Positions 1-6,306 of a DNA stretch of 46,028 bases are shown here, in pieces; positions within the stretch are counted from its first letter, which is position 1; every line of letters starts with the position of its first letter. Position numbers and translations under genes: made by a program. The DNA is from a virus, in the IMG/VR virus record IMGVR_UViG_3300035664_000025, positions 1-46,028 of that record, one strand, 5' to 3'. The notes below the pieces were generated by a model. It did not search any database. It saw nothing but the letters and a program-made list of their open reading frames with translations, and was not told where the DNA came from.

Positions 1-268
1 TATCGCCAGATGGCCCCGCAATTCCCCCCAGTACCCCTACCTTATATACAGGGACGTACAGTAAATATCCCGAGCACTGTTTGATTGTTTTTCATCAGGA
101 CAGAGCTATTGAGAATACCAGTGGCAAAAAGTTGCGATAAAGGACGCCCAGCGTATGTCCATTTCTTTGTCCAGAGTATCTGCATCAGGCACAGGTACGC
201 AGGACATTGGACAGGAGCATGGATACTGGCAGCACTGTCATCATCTATAGTCACGCCTTATTGAGAAT
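1..268. repeat. Left direct terminal repeat
   Basis: The first 268 bases recur at 45761-46028, the last 268 bases of the window. T7-like phages have direct terminal repeats of roughly this size, used for concatemer formation and packaging, so the window looks like a full linear genome. The copies differ at four clustered positions: 128, 129, 139 and 144 here, matching 45888, 45889, 45899 and 45904. An antisense ORF at 42-254 falls inside the repeat and has no recognisable features. Confidence 0.9.
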
Positions 269-716
269 GAATCGCAATAAGCAATGAGTTACTGAGATAC
301 AATGATAAGGTATTGTTATCGGTTAGCGCTGAATGATAAGGTGTAGGCATAGCTAGATATCAAGTGATCTGTATGCGCAGCATATACCAGTATGACAGTG
401 CGGCTATAACGCTCTCAGCCACCGCTACAAGCCGCTATAAGGCCCCTCTAACAGTTATTAGGTATACTGAGCCCTAACGCTACATAGAGGCACCTTGTAG
501 GCGATTATTAACAGATTGTCCTGTGTTCACAGTATTCACACCTTGTGCTCATCAGTATTCACACTCACGCTATTTGTTACTTATCACACAGGGGCGTCAG
601 TCCCTGACACCAGTGCTGTTTCAGTTCGACTCACCCAATATCAATACGGTTCGGATCGATAAGGAACGCTGATAGGGTCAATTAGGGGGCTACACGGATC
701 CACTGGGTTCTTGGGA
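269..716 (+). other. Non-coding left-end region
   Basis: No convincing gene lies between the repeat and the first small ORF. The stretch holds a 12-bp direct repeat (CAGTATTCACAC at 530-541 and 553-564), a palindrome CTGTGttCACAG at 521-532, one copy of the TTCACACTCACG motif at 558-569, and a CGACTCAC at 627-634 that resembles the core of T7-type promoters. Left ends of T7-like genomes usually carry early host-type promoters and replication signals. No origin can be demonstrated here. Confidence 0.5.
558..569 (+). promoter_or_regulatory. TTCACACTCACG motif, copy 1
   Basis: This is the first copy of a motif repeated at 1790-1802, 2731-2743, 3689-3699 and 14801-14812, with a weaker form at 7720-7730. 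It lies in non-coding DNA near the left end. The ACTCAC core is shared with T7-type promoters, so it is a candidate phage RNA polymerase promoter or other regulatory site. Confidence 0.4.
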
Positions 717-746
717 TTGACACATCGGCCTAGGGGCTGGTATGTT
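717..746 (+). promoter_or_regulatory. Sigma70-type early promoter
   Basis: TTGACA at 717-722 is a perfect -35 box. It is followed after 18 bases by TATGTT at 741-746, a near-consensus -10 box. It is the best host-type promoter I found and sits upstream of the whole early block, so it is probably the main early promoter recognised by host RNA polymerase. The transcript would start near 753. Confidence 0.65.
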
Positions 747-750
747 AGAT

Positions 751-930
751 GAGTCGGTGGGGGAGGCGAGAGCTGAGCTCCACCGGGCACCTTGATAATA
801 GAATAGTTGTGGTTCGTCACAAGACGGAACTAGCGGAGCGAGCGATCCCGCGAGTAGTTATAGGTAGCAACTCTACCTGACTACACGAACCCGTATCTAA
901 TCACTAGTGCGTGCTAACGCACACTAACAC
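751..930 (+). ncRNA. Structured 5' leader of the early transcript
   Basis: About 250 bases separate the likely transcription start from the first ORF. They contain several hairpins: CGGTGG/CCACCG at 755-785, TTGTG/CACAA at 807-822 with a six-base loop, AGGTAG/CTACCT at 862-878, and GTGCGT-GCTA-ACGCAC at 907-922. Such density suggests a folded leader that could stabilise the early mRNA, serve as an RNase III processing site or attenuate transcription. Whether it is a separate RNA cannot be told from sequence. Confidence 0.4.
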
Positions 931-1000
931 AGAGCCACATGTGTTTAATAAATTAGATCATGGCTACTTGTTCACAACACCAACAACTACGGAGTTAACT

Positions 1001-1156
1001 ATGACCAACACCATTAACCAAACCTGGAATGACACCACTGTTAACACTTTCTATTGGATGGAGGCCAACTGCAATAGCTACAAGTTTGATAATTACAGCG
1101 AGGCTATGTACACCTCTATTGCTTGGATTGAGGATGACAATGAGTGCACCTACTGA
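1001..1156 (+). CDS. Small early hypothetical protein
   Basis: A 51-residue protein starting MTNTINQTWNDTT. The ATG at 1001 is chosen over an upstream GTG at 911 because GGAG lies six bases before it (991-994), and because the longer form would be read through the 907-922 hairpin. It is rich in Asn, Thr and aromatic residues and ends acidic (IEDDNECTY). No family is recognised. As the first early gene, a role in host takeover is plausible but unproven. Confidence 0.6.
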   Translation: MTNTINQTWNDTTVNTFYWMEANCNSYKFDNYSEAMYTSIAWIEDDNECTY

Positions 1157-1186
1157 TCATTAACTAATCACAATCACACCACTATT

Positions 1187-1333
1187 ATGTCTATCACCGT
1201 TGATCGTATAGTAGCCACTTGTCTTCTCAGTAAGGCTACTACTGGTAATGAGATCTTGGCTGTACTTGATATGATTACTTCTACCTTTAACCAACCCATT
1301 ACACCTTCTATGATGGAGATGATTAAATCCTGA
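1187..1333 (+). CDS. Small early hypothetical protein
   Basis: A 48-residue ORF beginning MSITVDRIVATCLLSKATTG. Its middle reads NEILAVLDMITSTF, a pattern I recall from small cyanophage proteins of unknown function. No Shine-Dalgarno sequence is obvious. It lies between two other small early genes on the same strand. No catalytic motif, membrane segment or metal site is visible, so no function is proposed. Confidence 0.6.
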   Translation: MSITVDRIVATCLLSKATTGNEILAVLDMITSTFNQPITPSMMEMIKS

Positions 1334-1415
1334 TGCTAACCTTAACTATCCTAATCAGGTGAGCGACTCGCTTCGCTCGCCACTCTCGGTACCATTTACG
1401 CTATTAAGGAGATCA

Positions 1416-1634
1416 ATGACAACGTTTATCTTTGATGACCTTCGTGCTGCTGTACAAGACTGTACCAGCTATGACTTAGTTCAACGCATGGGTGATGACT
1501 ATGAAGAGTATGTATTAGTTGATCCTTATGGAGATGTAGATGGTGATCCATTCTACGAGTTGGAAGATGTAGAGTCTTTCATTCGTGCTAATGATGACAT
1601 TGATGCTTACCTTTACAACATTACCAACGTATGA
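1416..1634 (+). CDS. Small acidic early hypothetical protein
   Basis: A 72-residue acidic protein starting MTTFIFDDLRAAV. The start is set by AAGGAG at 1406-1411, five bases ahead of the ATG; an upstream in-frame GTG at 1359 would run through the GC-rich inverted repeat GAGCG/CGCTC near 1361-1378. Many Asp and Glu residues sit beside aromatic ones. Small acidic early phage proteins often bind host enzymes or mimic DNA, but nothing here identifies a target. It overlaps the next ORF by four bases (ATGA). Confidence 0.7.
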   Translation: MTTFIFDDLRAAVQDCTSYDLVQRMGDDYEEYVLVDPYGDVDGDPFYELEDVESFIRANDDIDAYLYNITNV

Positions 1635-1780
1635 TGTACACTATCTCTCGCATGGATGATGAGGGTAACATGATTGCCCTTGAGTCATTCGATACATATA
1701 GTGAGGCTGAGATGATGTTCGATAGCTACTGTGACATGTATCCTCATGCCTATGTAGATATCGTTAGCACACCTGAGTAA
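1631..1780 (+). CDS. Small early hypothetical protein
   Basis: A 49-residue ORF starting at an ATGA overlap with the previous stop, a sign of translational coupling. A second in-frame ATG at 1634 is equally possible. The protein is acidic and rich in Met, Tyr and Ser, with SFDTYSEAEMMFDSYCDMYP in the middle. That helical-looking stretch resembles short repeats in small cyanophage proteins, but no family is assigned. Confidence 0.6.
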   Translation: MMYTISRMDDEGNMIALESFDTYSEAEMMFDSYCDMYPHAYVDIVSTPE

Positions 1781-1789
1781 TTCAAATCG

Positions 1790-1802
1790 TTCACACTCAC
1801 GA
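1790..1802 (+). promoter_or_regulatory. TTCACACTCACGA motif, copy 2
   Basis: An intergenic copy of the recurring motif, 11 bases upstream of the ATG of the ArdA-like gene. If it is a promoter, initiation would fall almost at the start codon, leaving little leader. Confidence 0.4.
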
Positions 1803-1812
1803 GGCTTTAACT

Positions 1813-2388
1813 ATGACCACCGCCACTCCTATCTTTATGCTCAAGGGTGATTCACTTCTTAACTTCGTCAATGACAAGATGCCCCTTATTAATAGAGGTG
1901 AGCTGACTCGCACTGATATGATCAAGGACGCAGGCTATGTGTACGATAGCGGTAAGGCTATGTATGTAGACTTCTACACTGAGTTGCTCAATGCACGAGG
2001 TGTAATCCCTACTACCAACACTGATACTATGGACCAAGAGTACGATGACCTCAGCAATGATGAGAAGGATCTCTATGATAAGATCACTGACATGCTCGGT
2101 GAGAAGTGGACCCATGAGGAGACTGTTGAGTTCATGGATGAGCTCGATGACATCGGTATCAACACTGCTAGTGACTTCGAGGATGCTTATGAGTACACCC
2201 ACGATAGCTACTCATCGTATGCTGAGAAGGAATTCGCTGAGTACTTCGTCATTGAGGTGATGGATGCACAGATCCCTGACATTGTAATGGCTGCTATTGA
2301 TTGGCAAGATGTGTGGGATCACAACCTACGCTATGACTTCTGTAGCATTGAGACTGCTAACGGTACCTTCTTCTTTCGTAACAACTGA
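1813..2388 (+). CDS. cyAbrB-like / ArdA-like fusion, putative antirestriction protein
   Basis: A 191-residue acidic protein. Residues about 9-64 (KGDSLLNFV, LTRTDMIKDAGYV, FYTELLNARG) resemble the N-terminal region of cyanobacterial cyAbrB regulators, with the pattern L-x-G-x-x-LL, a GY pair, then FY-x-x-LL-x-A-x-G. Residues about 100-191 match the C-terminal part of ArdA antirestriction proteins: DFEDAYEYTHD, EKEFAEYF, the AIDW motif at 161-164, and a final GTFFFRNN. ArdA proteins mimic DNA and block type I restriction enzymes. A role in evading restriction, perhaps aimed by the AbrB-like part, is inferred. Antirestriction genes are typically early, which fits this place. Confidence 0.6.
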   Translation: MTTATPIFMLKGDSLLNFVNDKMPLINRGELTRTDMIKDAGYVYDSGKAMYVDFYTELLNARGVIPTTNTDTMDQEYDDLSNDEKDLYDKITDMLGEKWTHEETVEFMDELDDIGINTASDFEDAYEYTHDSYSSYAEKEFAEYFVIEVMDAQIPDIVMAAIDWQDVWDHNLRYDFCSIETANGTFFFRNN

Positions 2389-2417
2389 CCAACTCTTACT
2401 CCACTGCGTTCCATAAG

Positions 2418-2723
2418 ATGACTAACCACAAGAAACAAGCAGTCGAGTACTGCCTCAACACGTTTGACTTTGAACGTGTCCATAAAGTGATGGAGCATGT
2501 CGATTGGGTATGGGCTACACAGGATGGTCTCAAAGTACCCACCATTGTTCAATTAGTTCTTGCTGCTCAACAGCGTCTCAATGATGCTTGGGATAAGCGT
2601 ACAACTATTGAAAGTGGAGGGCTACGTGCTGCCTATGTGCAAGCAGACATGGATGAGTATGGTGAACTAGCACCTCCAGCACTAGAGCTTATGTTCATCC
2701 TCACTCAAACACAATCTTACTAA
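2418..2723 (+). CDS. Conserved early phage hypothetical protein
   Basis: A 101-residue protein starting MTNHKKQAVEYCLNTFDF. The pattern FERVHKVMEHVDWVW, followed by VPTIVQLVLAAQQ, then ESGGLRA, and a C-terminus built around LELMFILTQ is one I recall from conserved hypothetical proteins in tailed phages. Nothing in it suggests an enzyme. Its stop (TAA) is followed at once by the ATG of the next gene, so the two are likely co-translated. Confidence 0.75.
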   Translation: MTNHKKQAVEYCLNTFDFERVHKVMEHVDWVWATQDGLKVPTIVQLVLAAQQRLNDAWDKRTTIESGGLRAAYVQADMDEYGELAPPALELMFILTQTQSY

Positions 2724-2915
2724 ATGTTGCTTCACACTCACGACACAGCGATTAAAGTTGATGTCTACCCTGATGAGTTCAAGCCTATTATGAAGGCAGT
2801 CAAGTATGCTCTAATGTGTGATGACTCTCGTAAGGTTCTTAATGAGGTAGAGTGGGCTACACTAAATGCGTGGCTTGATGACTTCTCTGATATTGCACTT
2901 AACGAGGCTGTTTAA
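2724..2915 (+). CDS. Small early hypothetical protein
   Basis: A 63-residue ORF starting directly after the previous stop (TAAATG). It begins MLLHTHDTAIKVDVYPDEF and is followed by probable helices. The HTHD residues are encoded by the TTCACACTCACGA motif at 2731-2743, so the motif lies inside the reading frame if this start is right. The next in-frame Met is near 2790. No family is recognised. Confidence 0.6.
   Translation: MLLHTHDTAIKVDVYPDEFKPIMKAVKYALMCDDSRKVLNEVEWATLNAWLDDFSDIALNEAV
2731..2743 (+). promoter_or_regulatory. TTCACACTCACGA motif, copy 3
   Basis: An exact 13-base copy of the recurring motif, just after the start of a small early ORF. It is read in the His-Thr-His frame here, but as Ser-His-Ser at 14801, so conservation is at the DNA level rather than of the peptide. 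Confidence 0.35.
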
Positions 2916-3085
2916 TGGCTAAAGCACTGACCCAAGATCAAATCAAGATGCGTCTTGAGTTGATTGACTTTGTTGCTCAAGGTGTACGTACTCAAGCAAC
3001 TGCTGGGTACTATGATGCTGAGCAAGTTACGTACTTGACTCAACAACTTGAGCGTGTTGCTAAGTTCCTTTGTGTTCGTAACTGA
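2915..3085 (+). CDS. Small early hypothetical protein
   Basis: A 56-residue ORF whose ATG shares a base with the preceding TAA. It begins MAKALTQDQIKMRLELIDF and continues with two probable amphipathic helices and a Leu/Gln-rich stretch (YLTQQLERVAKFL). The helical make-up suggests a small protein-binding or coiled-coil partner. No known family is recognised. Confidence 0.6.
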   Translation: MAKALTQDQIKMRLELIDFVAQGVRTQATAGYYDAEQVTYLTQQLERVAKFLCVRN

Positions 3086-3087
3086 TC

Positions 3088-3252
3088 ATGTACACCACCT
3101 ATAAAGGTCTCCGTGAGTACGAGGTAACCCTCACCAGTGGTGTGTGGTACTTACTCGCACCTAGTACTGAGCAGGCTGCATGGACTGCTCTTGAACTATC
3201 CCAACAACGTAACGAACAACTAGTAAATGTCAAACAAACGGAAGAATGGTAA
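3088..3252 (+). CDS. Small early hypothetical protein
   Basis: A 54-residue ORF two bases after the previous stop, beginning MYTTYKGLREYEVTL. A beta-rich first half (YEVTL, GVWYLLAP) is followed by a helix ending QRNEQLVNVKQTEEW. Its 3' end overlaps the next gene by 26 bases in another frame, as is usual in this packed early block. Function unknown. Confidence 0.55.
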   Translation: MYTTYKGLREYEVTLTSGVWYLLAPSTEQAAWTALELSQQRNEQLVNVKQTEEW

Positions 3253-3559
3253 GATGGGTAAGCGTAAAGAGTTCCCTAACAACTGGCAAGAGTACAAGGA
3301 TGCTGATGATGACATGTTCCACGAGCATACCTTTGAAGAGATCATGTCGTGGAAGGTAGGAGGCTGGGAACTACCTAGCTCAGTCTGCTGCATCATCCGC
3401 ACCTCTGACCTAAAGACTGGTAAGGTTAAGGAGTATGTCTACCAAAAGCGTAGTGCTGCTCAGGCTAAGGTTAACGCACTGATTGACACACCTGACATTG
3501 AGTTCACGGTTGTTGATCACGAGTCTATTCACTTCCTCACCCCTACTGATTTCAACTGA
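3227..3559 (+). CDS. Conserved cyanophage hypothetical protein
   Basis: A 110-residue protein starting MSNKRKNGKMGKRKEFPNNW. A basic N-terminus leads into FEEIMSWKVGGWELPSSV, then an IIRTSDLKTGKVKEYVY segment and a C-terminal beta-rich part. The layout resembles a hypothetical protein family I recall from T7-like cyanophages. A basic tail with a compact beta domain would suit nucleic-acid or protein binding, but no active site is visible. Confidence 0.7.
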   Translation: MSNKRKNGKMGKRKEFPNNWQEYKDADDDMFHEHTFEEIMSWKVGGWELPSSVCCIIRTSDLKTGKVKEYVYQKRSAAQAKVNALIDTPDIEFTVVDHESIHFLTPTDFN

Positions 3560-3702
3560 TGTCTAACACTACCTTCTCCCGTCGTCTTGCTCAACTCATC
3601 CAGCAGCTCGAGAACCATCCCCATCGTGATGAGATCATCAAGCTTGCACAAGAGCAAATGATCGACGACAACGAATTCGTTCACTTCGTTCACACTCACT
3701 GA
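3559..3702 (+). CDS. Small early hypothetical protein upstream of RNA polymerase
   Basis: A 47-residue ORF overlapping the previous stop by one base (TGATG). It starts MSNTTFSRRLAQLIQQLENH, is mostly helical, and ends EFVHFVHTH. The last codons lie within motif copy 4 at 3689-3699. It is the last early gene before the polymerase, 10 bases upstream of the TTG start. Function unknown. Confidence 0.55.
   Translation: MSNTTFSRRLAQLIQQLENHPHRDEIIKLAQEQMIDDNEFVHFVHTH
3689..3699 (+). promoter_or_regulatory. TTCACACTCAC motif, copy 4, before the RNA polymerase gene
   Basis: This copy is 13 bases upstream of the TTG start of the RNA polymerase gene, across the end of the preceding ORF. In this copy the bases after the core are TGA rather than GA. 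A promoter here would let the polymerase act on its own gene, which is speculative. Confidence 0.4.
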
Positions 3703-3712
3703 GAATTGATTA

Positions 3713-6052
3713 TTGGCAACACCTGCACAGATCGATGAGCAAGTAGCTCTAGAGCGAGAGCAAATCAAGCAAGGACTCCAGCGCCTCAGAGACAACACCC
3801 GTAAGCTGCAAGAACAAAGCTATGCTAGTGCTACAGTTTATGGTATAACGTCTATTGATGCGCTACTGCCTAGCCTTGTTAAACACATAGAGGAGAGTAG
3901 TGAGTATCGTCTCAAGCGTGGATCAGGTCACCAGTTTGATGTCATCAAGAACTATGTCTCTCAGCTAGAGCCACTAGCATCTGCCTCTATTTCGCTAAAG
4001 ATCACCTTTGATAAGGTATTCTCTACCACCAAGGGTAGTGATCAACTGCAATCAGTGTGTGATGCTATTGGTCATGCTGTTGAGTCTGAGTGTCAGATGC
4101 GACACTATGAGAAGACTGCACCTGGGCTGTTAGCTGTACTCAAAAAGAACTACTACCACAAGTCTATTGGTACACAACAAAAGCTAACTGTCATCAAAAC
4201 ATTGATGAACAGATGTGAGGTACCTGAGTGGGAGATTTGGGGTAGAGCTAATCGCATCAAGCTAGGTGCATGGTTACTTGATTGCATCATGCAAACTAGT
4301 GGTTGGTTCGTTAAGGATCTGCGTCGCTTAGGTAAGATCACTGTAACGTTTGTTGCACCTACACCTGCGTTCCTTGAGATCCGTGATAAGGTCATGAGTG
4401 AAGCTGAACTATTTGCTCCACTTGCATGGCCAATGCTTATCGAACCAAACGATTGGACTAACGATCGCCCTGGTGGTTACCTACTCAATGAGGTGATGCG
4501 AGGCTACTCCTTGGTTCGGAGGGGAGACCCCGCCCGTCTACAGGAGGAGATTCCTCTTGCCTTTCTGAACAAGATTCAGAAGGTAGCTTACCAAATCAAT
4601 CCCTTTATTTATGGGGTTGCTGAGGAGCTAACTATAATGGAACGCTCTGTTGGTAAGTTCCTACCAGTTGTTAATCACCCTCTACCTGCTAAACCTGCTG
4701 ACATTGAAACCAACTACGATAGCCGTAAGGATTATCGGAGAAGAGCAGCGGAGGTGTTGAACTTACAAGCACAAGAACCTAAGAAGTCATGTAGAACTCG
4801 CATGACTATGGAAGCAGCTAAGAGGTTCAAGGATAGAGATAGGTTCTTCTGTCCATGGTCATTTGACTATAGAGGAAGAGCTTATCCTATCCCTGCTTTT
4901 CTAACACCACAAGACACTGACTTTGGTAAGTCATTACTGAGGTTTGCTGATGGATCTTATATGACACCAGAAGCTGAGTCGTGGTTAGCCTTTCAAGTAG
5001 CGACTTGTTATGGGTTAGATAAAGCAACCATGTCTGATCGACTAGCTTGGGTGGAGAATAACATCACACTCATCAGTCGTATTGCTACTGACCCAATCGG
5101 ATCTTTACCTGAATGGGAGGCAGCAGAAGAACCATGGCAATTCTTAGCAAGCTGTGAAGAGTATTATCATTGTGTGATCACAGCTGATAGACAATTCACA
5201 TCACTGTTTGTTGCTGTTGATGCAACCTGTAGTGGTCTCCAGATCTTGGCTGGACTTGCACGAGATAAGTCAACTGCAAGACTGGTTAATGTGTTACCTG
5301 GTGATAAGCCTCAGGATGCCTATAAGGTAGTCGCTGAAGCTGCTATGTCATCAGTACCTGAACGCTTACGTCCATTCCTAGATAGGAAGAAGACCAAGCG
5401 TTGTGTTATGACTATCCCTTACAATGCTAAGCCTTACTCCAACAGGGGTTACATCAAAGAGGCTTTCTTGGAGGATGGGCTAGAGCTTGAGAAGGAAGAG
5501 CTAACTCAAGTTGTTCAAGCTATCAGGTCAGCTATGGATGTGGTCGTACCAGGTCCTATGGCTGTTATGAAATGGATTGAGGCTGAGGTAGCAGCTGCTG
5601 TAAAGCGTGGTGTACGATACCTTGAATGGAGGACTCCATCTGGGTTTATTGTTCACCAGAAGCTCAACAAGAAGAAGTTCCAGTCTATGGAGCTACAGCT
5701 GTTGGGTCGCTGTAAGATGAAGGTGGCAGTTGGAGAGACTGATGAGGTCGACCTCAACCACCACAAGAATGCAACAGCTCCTAACCTTATTCACAGTCTA
5801 GACGCCAGTCTATTGCACTTGAGTGCCCTACGCTTTGATGCCCCTATTGCTCTTATTCACGATTCTGTGCTTTGTCGTGCAACGGATATGTCTACCCTAT
5901 CCACCATTGTACGAGAAACCTACATGCACTTGTTCGCAGAGCATGATTACCTACGAGACTTTGCCCAATACATTGGTGCAGAGTCTGAACCACCGATCAT
6001 TGGTGATCTAGAACCAGAGACCGTTATTGAGAGTACATATTTCTTCTGCTAA
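3713..6052 (+). CDS. T7-like single-subunit DNA-directed RNA polymerase
   Basis: A 779-residue T7-type RNA polymerase that transcribes the phage's middle and late genes. Motif A VDATCSGLQ carries Asp503 (T7 D537). Motif B (KTKRCVMTIPYN) carries Lys562 and Tyr570 (T7 K631 and Y639). Motif C LIHDS carries Asp717 (T7 D812). NLIHSLDAS matches the conserved segment before motif C. T7 polymerase has 883 residues, so this one is shorter, mainly at the N-terminus, as in other cyanophages. The start is TTG at 3713, with no strong ribosome site and no better in-frame start, which may keep polymerase levels low. A terminator follows. Identification is secure; the exact start is less so. Confidence 0.97.
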   Translation: MATPAQIDEQVALEREQIKQGLQRLRDNTRKLQEQSYASATVYGITSIDALLPSLVKHIEESSEYRLKRGSGHQFDVIKNYVSQLEPLASASISLKITFDKVFSTTKGSDQLQSVCDAIGHAVESECQMRHYEKTAPGLLAVLKKNYYHKSIGTQQKLTVIKTLMNRCEVPEWEIWGRANRIKLGAWLLDCIMQTSGWFVKDLRRLGKITVTFVAPTPAFLEIRDKVMSEAELFAPLAWPMLIEPNDWTNDRPGGYLLNEVMRGYSLVRRGDPARLQEEIPLAFLNKIQKVAYQINPFIYGVAEELTIMERSVGKFLPVVNHPLPAKPADIETNYDSRKDYRRRAAEVLNLQAQEPKKSCRTRMTMEAAKRFKDRDRFFCPWSFDYRGRAYPIPAFLTPQDTDFGKSLLRFADGSYMTPEAESWLAFQVATCYGLDKATMSDRLAWVENNITLISRIATDPIGSLPEWEAAEEPWQFLASCEEYYHCVITADRQFTSLFVAVDATCSGLQILAGLARDKSTARLVNVLPGDKPQDAYKVVAEAAMSSVPERLRPFLDRKKTKRCVMTIPYNAKPYSNRGYIKEAFLEDGLELEKEELTQVVQAIRSAMDVVVPGPMAVMKWIEAEVAAAVKRGVRYLEWRTPSGFIVHQKLNKKKFQSMELQLLGRCKMKVAVGETDEVDLNHHKNATAPNLIHSLDASLLHLSALRFDAPIALIHDSVLCRATDMSTLSTIVRETYMHLFAEHDYLRDFAQYIGAESEPPIIGDLEPETVIESTYFFC

Positions 6053-6081: not shown

Positions 6082-6153
6082 GCCTCTTTAGCTCAATGGT
6101 AGAGCAACGGTTTTGTAAACCGTAGGTTGTCAGTTCAAATCTGACAGGGGGCT
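6082..6153 (+). tRNA. tRNA-Thr(TGT)
   Basis: A full cloverleaf. Acceptor GCCTCTT pairs with AGGGGGC including two G-U pairs. Anticodon stem ACGGT/ACCGT encloses loop TTTGTAA, anticodon TGT reading ACA. T-arm GTCAG/CTGAC encloses TTCAAAT. CCA is not encoded. Only one base separates it from the next tRNA. Confidence 0.9.
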
Positions 6154-6154
6154 T

Positions 6155-6229
6155 GTGCCGTTAGCCTAGTGGTTAAGGAGCTGGTTTGTGGAACCAGATA
6201 GGAGGGTTCAATTCCCTCACGGCACTCCA
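6155..6229 (+). tRNA. tRNA-His(GTG) with encoded CCA
   Basis: Acceptor GTGCCGT pairs with ACGGCAC. Anticodon stem CTGGT/ACCAG encloses loop TTGTGGA, anticodon GTG. T-arm GAGGG/CCCTC encloses TTCAATT. The discriminator is T (6226), followed by an encoded CCA (6227-6229). Bacterial tRNA-His normally has an extra G at -1 facing C73; here -1 is T and 73 is T, so the main histidyl-tRNA synthetase identity pair is missing. The D-stem is weak. tRNA-Pro begins at the next base. Confidence 0.8.
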
Positions 6230-6303
6230 CGGGATATAGCTCAGTTTGGTAGAGCACTCGCTTTGGGAGCGAGATGTCGTAGGTTCGAATCCTACTACCC
6301 CGA
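6230..6303 (+). tRNA. tRNA-Pro(TGG)
   Basis: The first base follows directly after the CCA of tRNA-His. Acceptor CGGGATA pairs with TACCCCG apart from one A-C mismatch, and C1-G72 is typical of bacterial tRNA-Pro. Anticodon stem CTCGC/GCGAG encloses loop TTTGGGA, anticodon TGG reading CCA. T-arm GTAGG/CCTAC encloses TTCGAAT. Discriminator A; CCA is not encoded. Confidence 0.9.
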
Positions 6304-6306
6304 CTG

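Follow-up and report, generated by a model that had tools for sequence, protein, structure and literature searches.

The fusion gene and its setting

The window, meaning the whole stretch of DNA analysed here, is the 46,028-base IMG/VR virus record IMGVR_UViG_3300035664_000025. Its genes include those for a T7-like RNA polymerase, a gp2.5-like ssDNA-binding protein, an endonuclease, and a primase/helicase; the phage is a T7-like cyanopodovirus, and its host, judged by its relatives, is probably picocyanobacterial. At positions 1813–2388 of the plus strand (stop codon included), among small open reading frames (ORFs) and upstream of the RNA polymerase gene (3713–6052, plus strand), lies a gene for a protein of 191 amino acids with an ATG start, hereafter called the fusion protein. 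The initial annotation had reported an early protein of 191 residues at 1813–2388, which our ORF call reproduces exactly, and all the motifs that it quoted (LKGDSLL, GY, FYTELLNARG, DFEDAYEYTHD, FAEYF, AIDW, and FFFRNN) are present in the translation.

The fusion protein is kept at full length, with about 40–88% identity, in more than 50 IMG/VR contigs (52 loci were fetched, a small number being truncated where the contig stops) and in several isolates. Full-length relatives occur in the Synechococcus phages DSL-LC07 (78%), S-CBP1 (60%), and S-B28 and WH11-B/7B11-B (about 43%), and GenBank labels such relatives either ‘antirestriction protein’ or ‘hypothetical’. This full-length conservation, together with a pN/pS of about 0.33 (measured against locus L010), rules out a non-coding reading of 1813–2388. 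In all loci showing both genes (40/40), the RNA polymerase gene follows 1.1–3.1 kb downstream on the same strand. Scans of window positions 1–4000 for promoters and terminators did no better than on shuffled sequence.

Two further features of the region may be recorded. Upstream of the fusion gene, a 91-amino-acid ORF (1359–1634) matches phrog_35755 (E 1e-17, unknown function) and is likewise rich in Asp and Glu, and directly 3′ of the RNA polymerase gene, tRNA-Thr(TGT), tRNA-His(GTG), and tRNA-Pro(TGG) are clustered at 6082–6304.

Domain composition of the fusion protein

Searched as a single sequence against Pfam, NCBIfam, and PDB sequences, the fusion protein yielded nothing useful, and its matches to troponin C and a T9SS plug were weak and due to the acidic stretch. 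The initial annotation had likened the first 64 residues to the N-terminal part of cyAbrB and the C-terminal half to ArdA; when the two halves were compared separately, profile against profile, each gave a significant match to the family named, so that both assignments were upheld. We regard an architecture of a cyAbrB N-terminal-type domain followed by an ArdA-like part as very nearly certain.

The first domain spans residues 9–66 or thereabouts (1837–2010, plus strand) and was delimited by profile comparisons and by a predicted structure with helices at residues 12–27 and 33–39, a hairpin at 44/49, and a helix at 51–61. A cyAbrB query was used solely for fetching real cyAbrB genes, and the resulting set comprised 80 picocyanobacterial loci plus plasmid copies. 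Against these genes, the profile of the phage N-terminal domains aligned over cyAbrB residues 1–60 (hhalign probability 97.9, E 4.6e-13), and reciprocal HMM searches concurred, with E-values down to 1.6e-6 for the cyAbrB N-terminal HMM on the fusions and down to 3.8e-10 for the phage HMM on cyAbrB (Z=1e5 in both). When the 15,640 ORFs that these loci contain were surveyed, every N-domain match at E<1e-2 fell on a protein of one of these kinds. Across 59 cyanobacterial genomes, the phage profile found 26 places, namely 25 that adjoin PF14250 places and are therefore cyAbrB genes, and one in a 949-amino-acid ORF. Within the window, the cyAbrB N-terminal HMM matched the fusion ORF best (E 0.0015; next 1.0), and the two control comparisons, of the phage N-terminal profile with ArdA and of the phage C-terminal profile with cyAbrB, produced no alignment. 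The genome search, the window search, and both controls rule out a chance or compositional match, and the first of these controls also rules out that the N-terminal part is a degenerate ArdA domain 1.

Pfam and NCBIfam contain no direct match for the N-terminal part because PF14250 covers only cyAbrB residues 43–110; likewise, PF14250 is blank across the phage records because it spans only the AbrB part. It gave no match (0 at E up to 10) among 37 fusion members, and an HMM of the AbrB part found nothing within the window (best E 2.6). With the DNA-binding AbrB part absent, the fusion protein is not a cyAbrB. The initial annotation had also noted that cyAbrB binds DNA: the shared N-terminal domain stands, but that property is not transferable to a protein from which the DNA-binding part is missing.

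Structures were predicted for single chains, with an alignment built from the window and the IMG/VR loci. The N-terminal domain, near neutral in net charge (−1), was predicted confidently as three helices and a hairpin (pLDDT 87), but the model has no relative among solved structures in the PDB, so the fold gives no indication of how the domain binds. Weak winged-helix and MerR-like matches of the full-length model were discarded, as they disappeared when the domain was searched alone. The whole-protein model has a pTM of 0.60, a score that leaves the relative arrangement of the two halves open.

The remainder of the protein, about residues 68–191 (2014–2385, plus strand), is an acidic ArdA-like part with a net charge of about −28. 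Every family member has a C-terminal charge between −23 and −30, as expected for a DNA mimic, and mimicry is the function that this charge suggests. The PHROG anti-restriction family phrog_36653 is matched by 29 of the 37 members (best 7.9e-5), and matches in a viral library are mostly to anti-restriction proteins. The top Foldseek match is ArdA (2w82; probability 0.99, E 0.034, 110 columns), with a TM score of only 0.35–0.40 because part of each chain aligns. Compared with a profile of eight ArdA proteins (hhalign 93.4%, E 2.5e-7), residues of about 121–191 (2173–2385, plus strand) align onto ArdA 106–166, in the ArdA C-terminal domain. Pfam ArdA (PF07275) does not match the window protein and matches one of the 37 members (E 0.029). 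The ArdA N-terminal domain is missing, as the control comparison of the phage N-terminal profile indicated, and the cyAbrB N-terminal domain stands at the position of ArdA domain 1. Short relatives lacking the cyAbrB domain exist in NATL2A-133 (120 amino acids), S-RIP1 (114), and MedDCM-OCT-S04-C24 (113; Pfam ArdA E 0.0055, 17.8 bits, cut-off 27), and the acidic part is therefore an independent unit.

One position in the N-terminal domain deserves separate mention. Of the 76 distinct host cyAbrB sequences that were scorable, 75 have a cysteine ahead of the GY pair, full-length cyAbrB homologues of viral contigs keep it in 47 of 53, and the phage fusions replace it in 67/67 distinct scorable sequences (Ala in 65, Ser in 2), counts that do not represent independent events because the scored sequences are related. 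The corresponding codon in the window, that of Ala40, lies at 1930–1932 (plus strand) and was assigned by residue scoring. The host cysteine is residue 34 in many of the fetched proteins, and a 2026 review gives C34 as the conserved cysteine of cyAbrB2, which on glutathionylation disrupts the binding of DNA (PMC13421787); from numbering and conservation, the cysteine ahead of the GY pair is probably this C34, the position that holds Ala or Ser in the phage fusions.

The cyAbrB N-terminal domain also occurs in other settings. The Prochlorococcus phage P-TIM68 encodes it alone, as a 52-amino-acid protein annotated as hypothetical (AIR93619.1, L059:2501–2659, E 1e-10) in which Thr replaces the cyAbrB cysteine. 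In Synechococcus phage B23, gp246 (L060:2465–2893) joins it (E 2e-5) to an unrelated tail of about 75 amino acids with no ArdA match; gp246 as a query found one near-identical relative only. Full-length cyAbrB homologues of 105–116 amino acids are flanked by the gene for the large terminase subunit and the portal gene in several IMG/VR phage contigs (L186:2501–2845, L202:2501–2842, and L189:2485–2802), and a tblastn search with one of them against GenBank phages returned only the short P-TIM68 domain. Another homologue (L218:2444–2842) is situated just downstream of psbA (photosystem II D1) on a 90-kb viral contig. The 949-amino-acid cyanobacterial ORF (L231; G001 C24:156645–156821) has hydrophobic segments and carries the domain without the AbrB part.

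Candidate functions

Synechocystis cyAbrB2 coats AT-rich DNA, including IS elements, and has been likened to H-NS and Lsr2 (PMC11368403). A direct cyAbrB1–cyAbrB2 interaction is among the findings cited in that paper, according to which oligomerization of cyAbrB2 is without biochemical data. It is reported that cyAbrB binds DNA through a C-terminal domain (PMC4284466), and cyAbrB2 controls carbon and nitrogen genes (PMC4284466; PMC13421787).

The initial annotation had proposed that the phage may couple defence evasion with targeting or titration of a cyanobacterial regulator; this proposal, still an inference, takes a sharper form from the published likeness of cyAbrB2 to H-NS and from work on ArdA, Arn, and Ocr acting on H-NS. 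Against this background, the best explanation in our judgement, considered at slightly under even confidence, is that the fusion protein is a DNA mimic that docks onto cyAbrB, a nucleoid protein of the host, and thereby relieves silencing of phage DNA. The N-terminal domain would bind host cyAbrB by homotypic assembly or through the domain's normal contacts, and the acidic ArdA-like part, which stands where cyAbrB has its AbrB part, would fill or obstruct the surfaces that bind DNA. This would keep phage DNA from being coated by cyAbrB, and the protein would be a counter-silencer with an effect like that of T4 Arn and T7 gp5.5 on H-NS. Expression of the gene is probably early, a decoy lacking the cysteine would not respond to glutathionylation, and the ArdA-like part may additionally inhibit restriction enzymes.

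Several observations are consistent with such a docked mimic: the homology of the N-terminal domain, the missing AbrB part, the ArdA-like and strongly negative C-terminal part, the uniform replacement of the cysteine, and the occurrence of this domain apart from ArdA in P-TIM68 and B23. In T7, the DNA mimic Ocr is encoded in the region ahead of the RNA polymerase gene, and the corresponding placement of the fusion gene in all 40 loci showing both genes offers an analogy. Among 121 genomes of a host family, that of the picocyanobacterial genome G001 and not necessarily that of the host of the window phage, cyAbrB is found in 118 versus 40 with HSDR_N. Going by the titles of Melkina et al. (2016) and Melkina and Zavilgelsky (2021) as cited in PMC13300388, genes under H-NS control are activated by ArdA, Arn, and Ocr, and the ArdA N-terminal domain reportedly inhibits H-NS repression; by analogy, the substitution of a cyAbrB domain for that ArdA domain is suggestive. 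Weighing against docking are the demonstration of the nucleoid role of cyAbrB in Synechocystis and not in picocyanobacteria, the lack of a PDB relative for the N-terminal domain, the modest pTM, and the status of cyAbrB2 oligomerization (PMC11368403).

The main rival, which we consider possible and rather doubtful, is plain anti-restriction, aimed at type I or other systems (e.g. BREX), with the N-terminal domain merely serving dimerization or stability in replacement of ArdA domain 1 and cyAbrB being no target. Such a role accords with the resemblance of the C-terminal part to anti-restriction families and the ArdA fold, with the GenBank label of antirestriction protein, with the HSDR_N genes in a third of the 121 genomes, and with the short cyanophage relatives, which work, if at all, without the N-terminal domain. 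It fits less well with the choice of a domain from one particular DNA-binding protein that hosts carry almost universally, with the use of that domain by cyanophages in contexts without an ArdA part, and with the majority of sampled picocyanobacterial genomes, which are without HSDR_N (the search covered HSDR_N only).

The control of carbon and nitrogen genes by cyAbrB2 raises another reading, in which the N-terminal domain, whose homology would support binding, brings the acidic part into complexes of cyAbrB and so re-programmes these host genes, relief of phage-DNA silencing being incidental. We judge this host takeover improbable: a DNA-mimicking acidic part fits blocking better than redirecting, and the sequence gives no hint of specific host genes. 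Least probable in our estimate is that the N-terminal domain binds a partner other than cyAbrB (DNA, RNA polymerase, or a further host protein), to which the fusion would target the mimic. The occurrence of the domain outside cyAbrB, in the 949-amino-acid host ORF, is in its favour, but its near-neutral charge does not suggest DNA binding, and the DNA-binding domain of cyAbrB is reportedly the C-terminal one (PMC4284466).

If the docked-mimic reading is true, it would point to cyAbrB as a silencer that matters to phages in photosynthetic cells ranking among the most abundant, would assign its unnamed N-terminal domain a binding role that can be tested, and would suggest that an exchange of the N-terminal domain is how ArdA-type mimics are redirected in nature. 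A broader proposition, which we put forward as speculative, is that cyAbrB is the picocyanobacterial xenogeneic silencer and that cyanophages possess an anti-silencing class built from its N-terminal domain, whether used alone, joined to a DNA mimic or to other tails, or retained within full-length copies; the ArdA fusion would then be redox-blind through loss of the cysteine.

Comparison with known systems

In the open-licence PMC literature, we found no description of a cyAbrB N-terminal domain paired with ArdA, which is weak evidence of absence, nor any described phage counter-measure to nucleoid silencers in cyanobacteria. Phage counter-measures of this kind have already been described for H-NS and MvaT. 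To our knowledge, none of T4 Arn, T7 gp5.5, and LUZ24 gp4 is made from a domain of its own target joined to a mimic, and the likeness drawn here is one of effect, not of sequence. What the fusion protein would share with these three is counter-silencing, for the fusion a proposed effect; Arn is also a DNA mimic, and gp5.5 binds an oligomerization site (PMC8501957).

Compared with cyAbrB1 and cyAbrB2 (PF14250), the fusion protein has a homologous N-terminal domain over cyAbrB residues 1–60 but lacks the AbrB DNA-binding part and has Ala or Ser for the cysteine. With ArdA (PF07275; 2w82; ColIb-P9-type) it shares the acidic C-terminal part, the fold, and the C-terminal motif, whereas it lacks the ArdA N-terminal domain, falls below the Pfam cut-off, and is joined to a cyAbrB domain. 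The short cyanophage ArdA-like proteins (of NATL2A-133, S-RIP1, and MedDCM-OCT-S04-C24, and the ‘anti-restriction’ proteins S-PM2 p068 and of S-TIM5) have a related acidic part but no cyAbrB domain. P-TIM68 AIR93619.1 and B23 gp246, conversely, resemble the fusion protein in carrying the cyAbrB domain without the AbrB part and differ from it in being a stand-alone 52-amino-acid protein or in having a tail without an ArdA match. ArdA-type DNA mimics are known, and the fusion protein is a variant of them joined to the cyAbrB N-terminal domain, a combination suggesting that one molecule may disarm silencers that bind DNA in the host and perhaps its restriction enzymes too.
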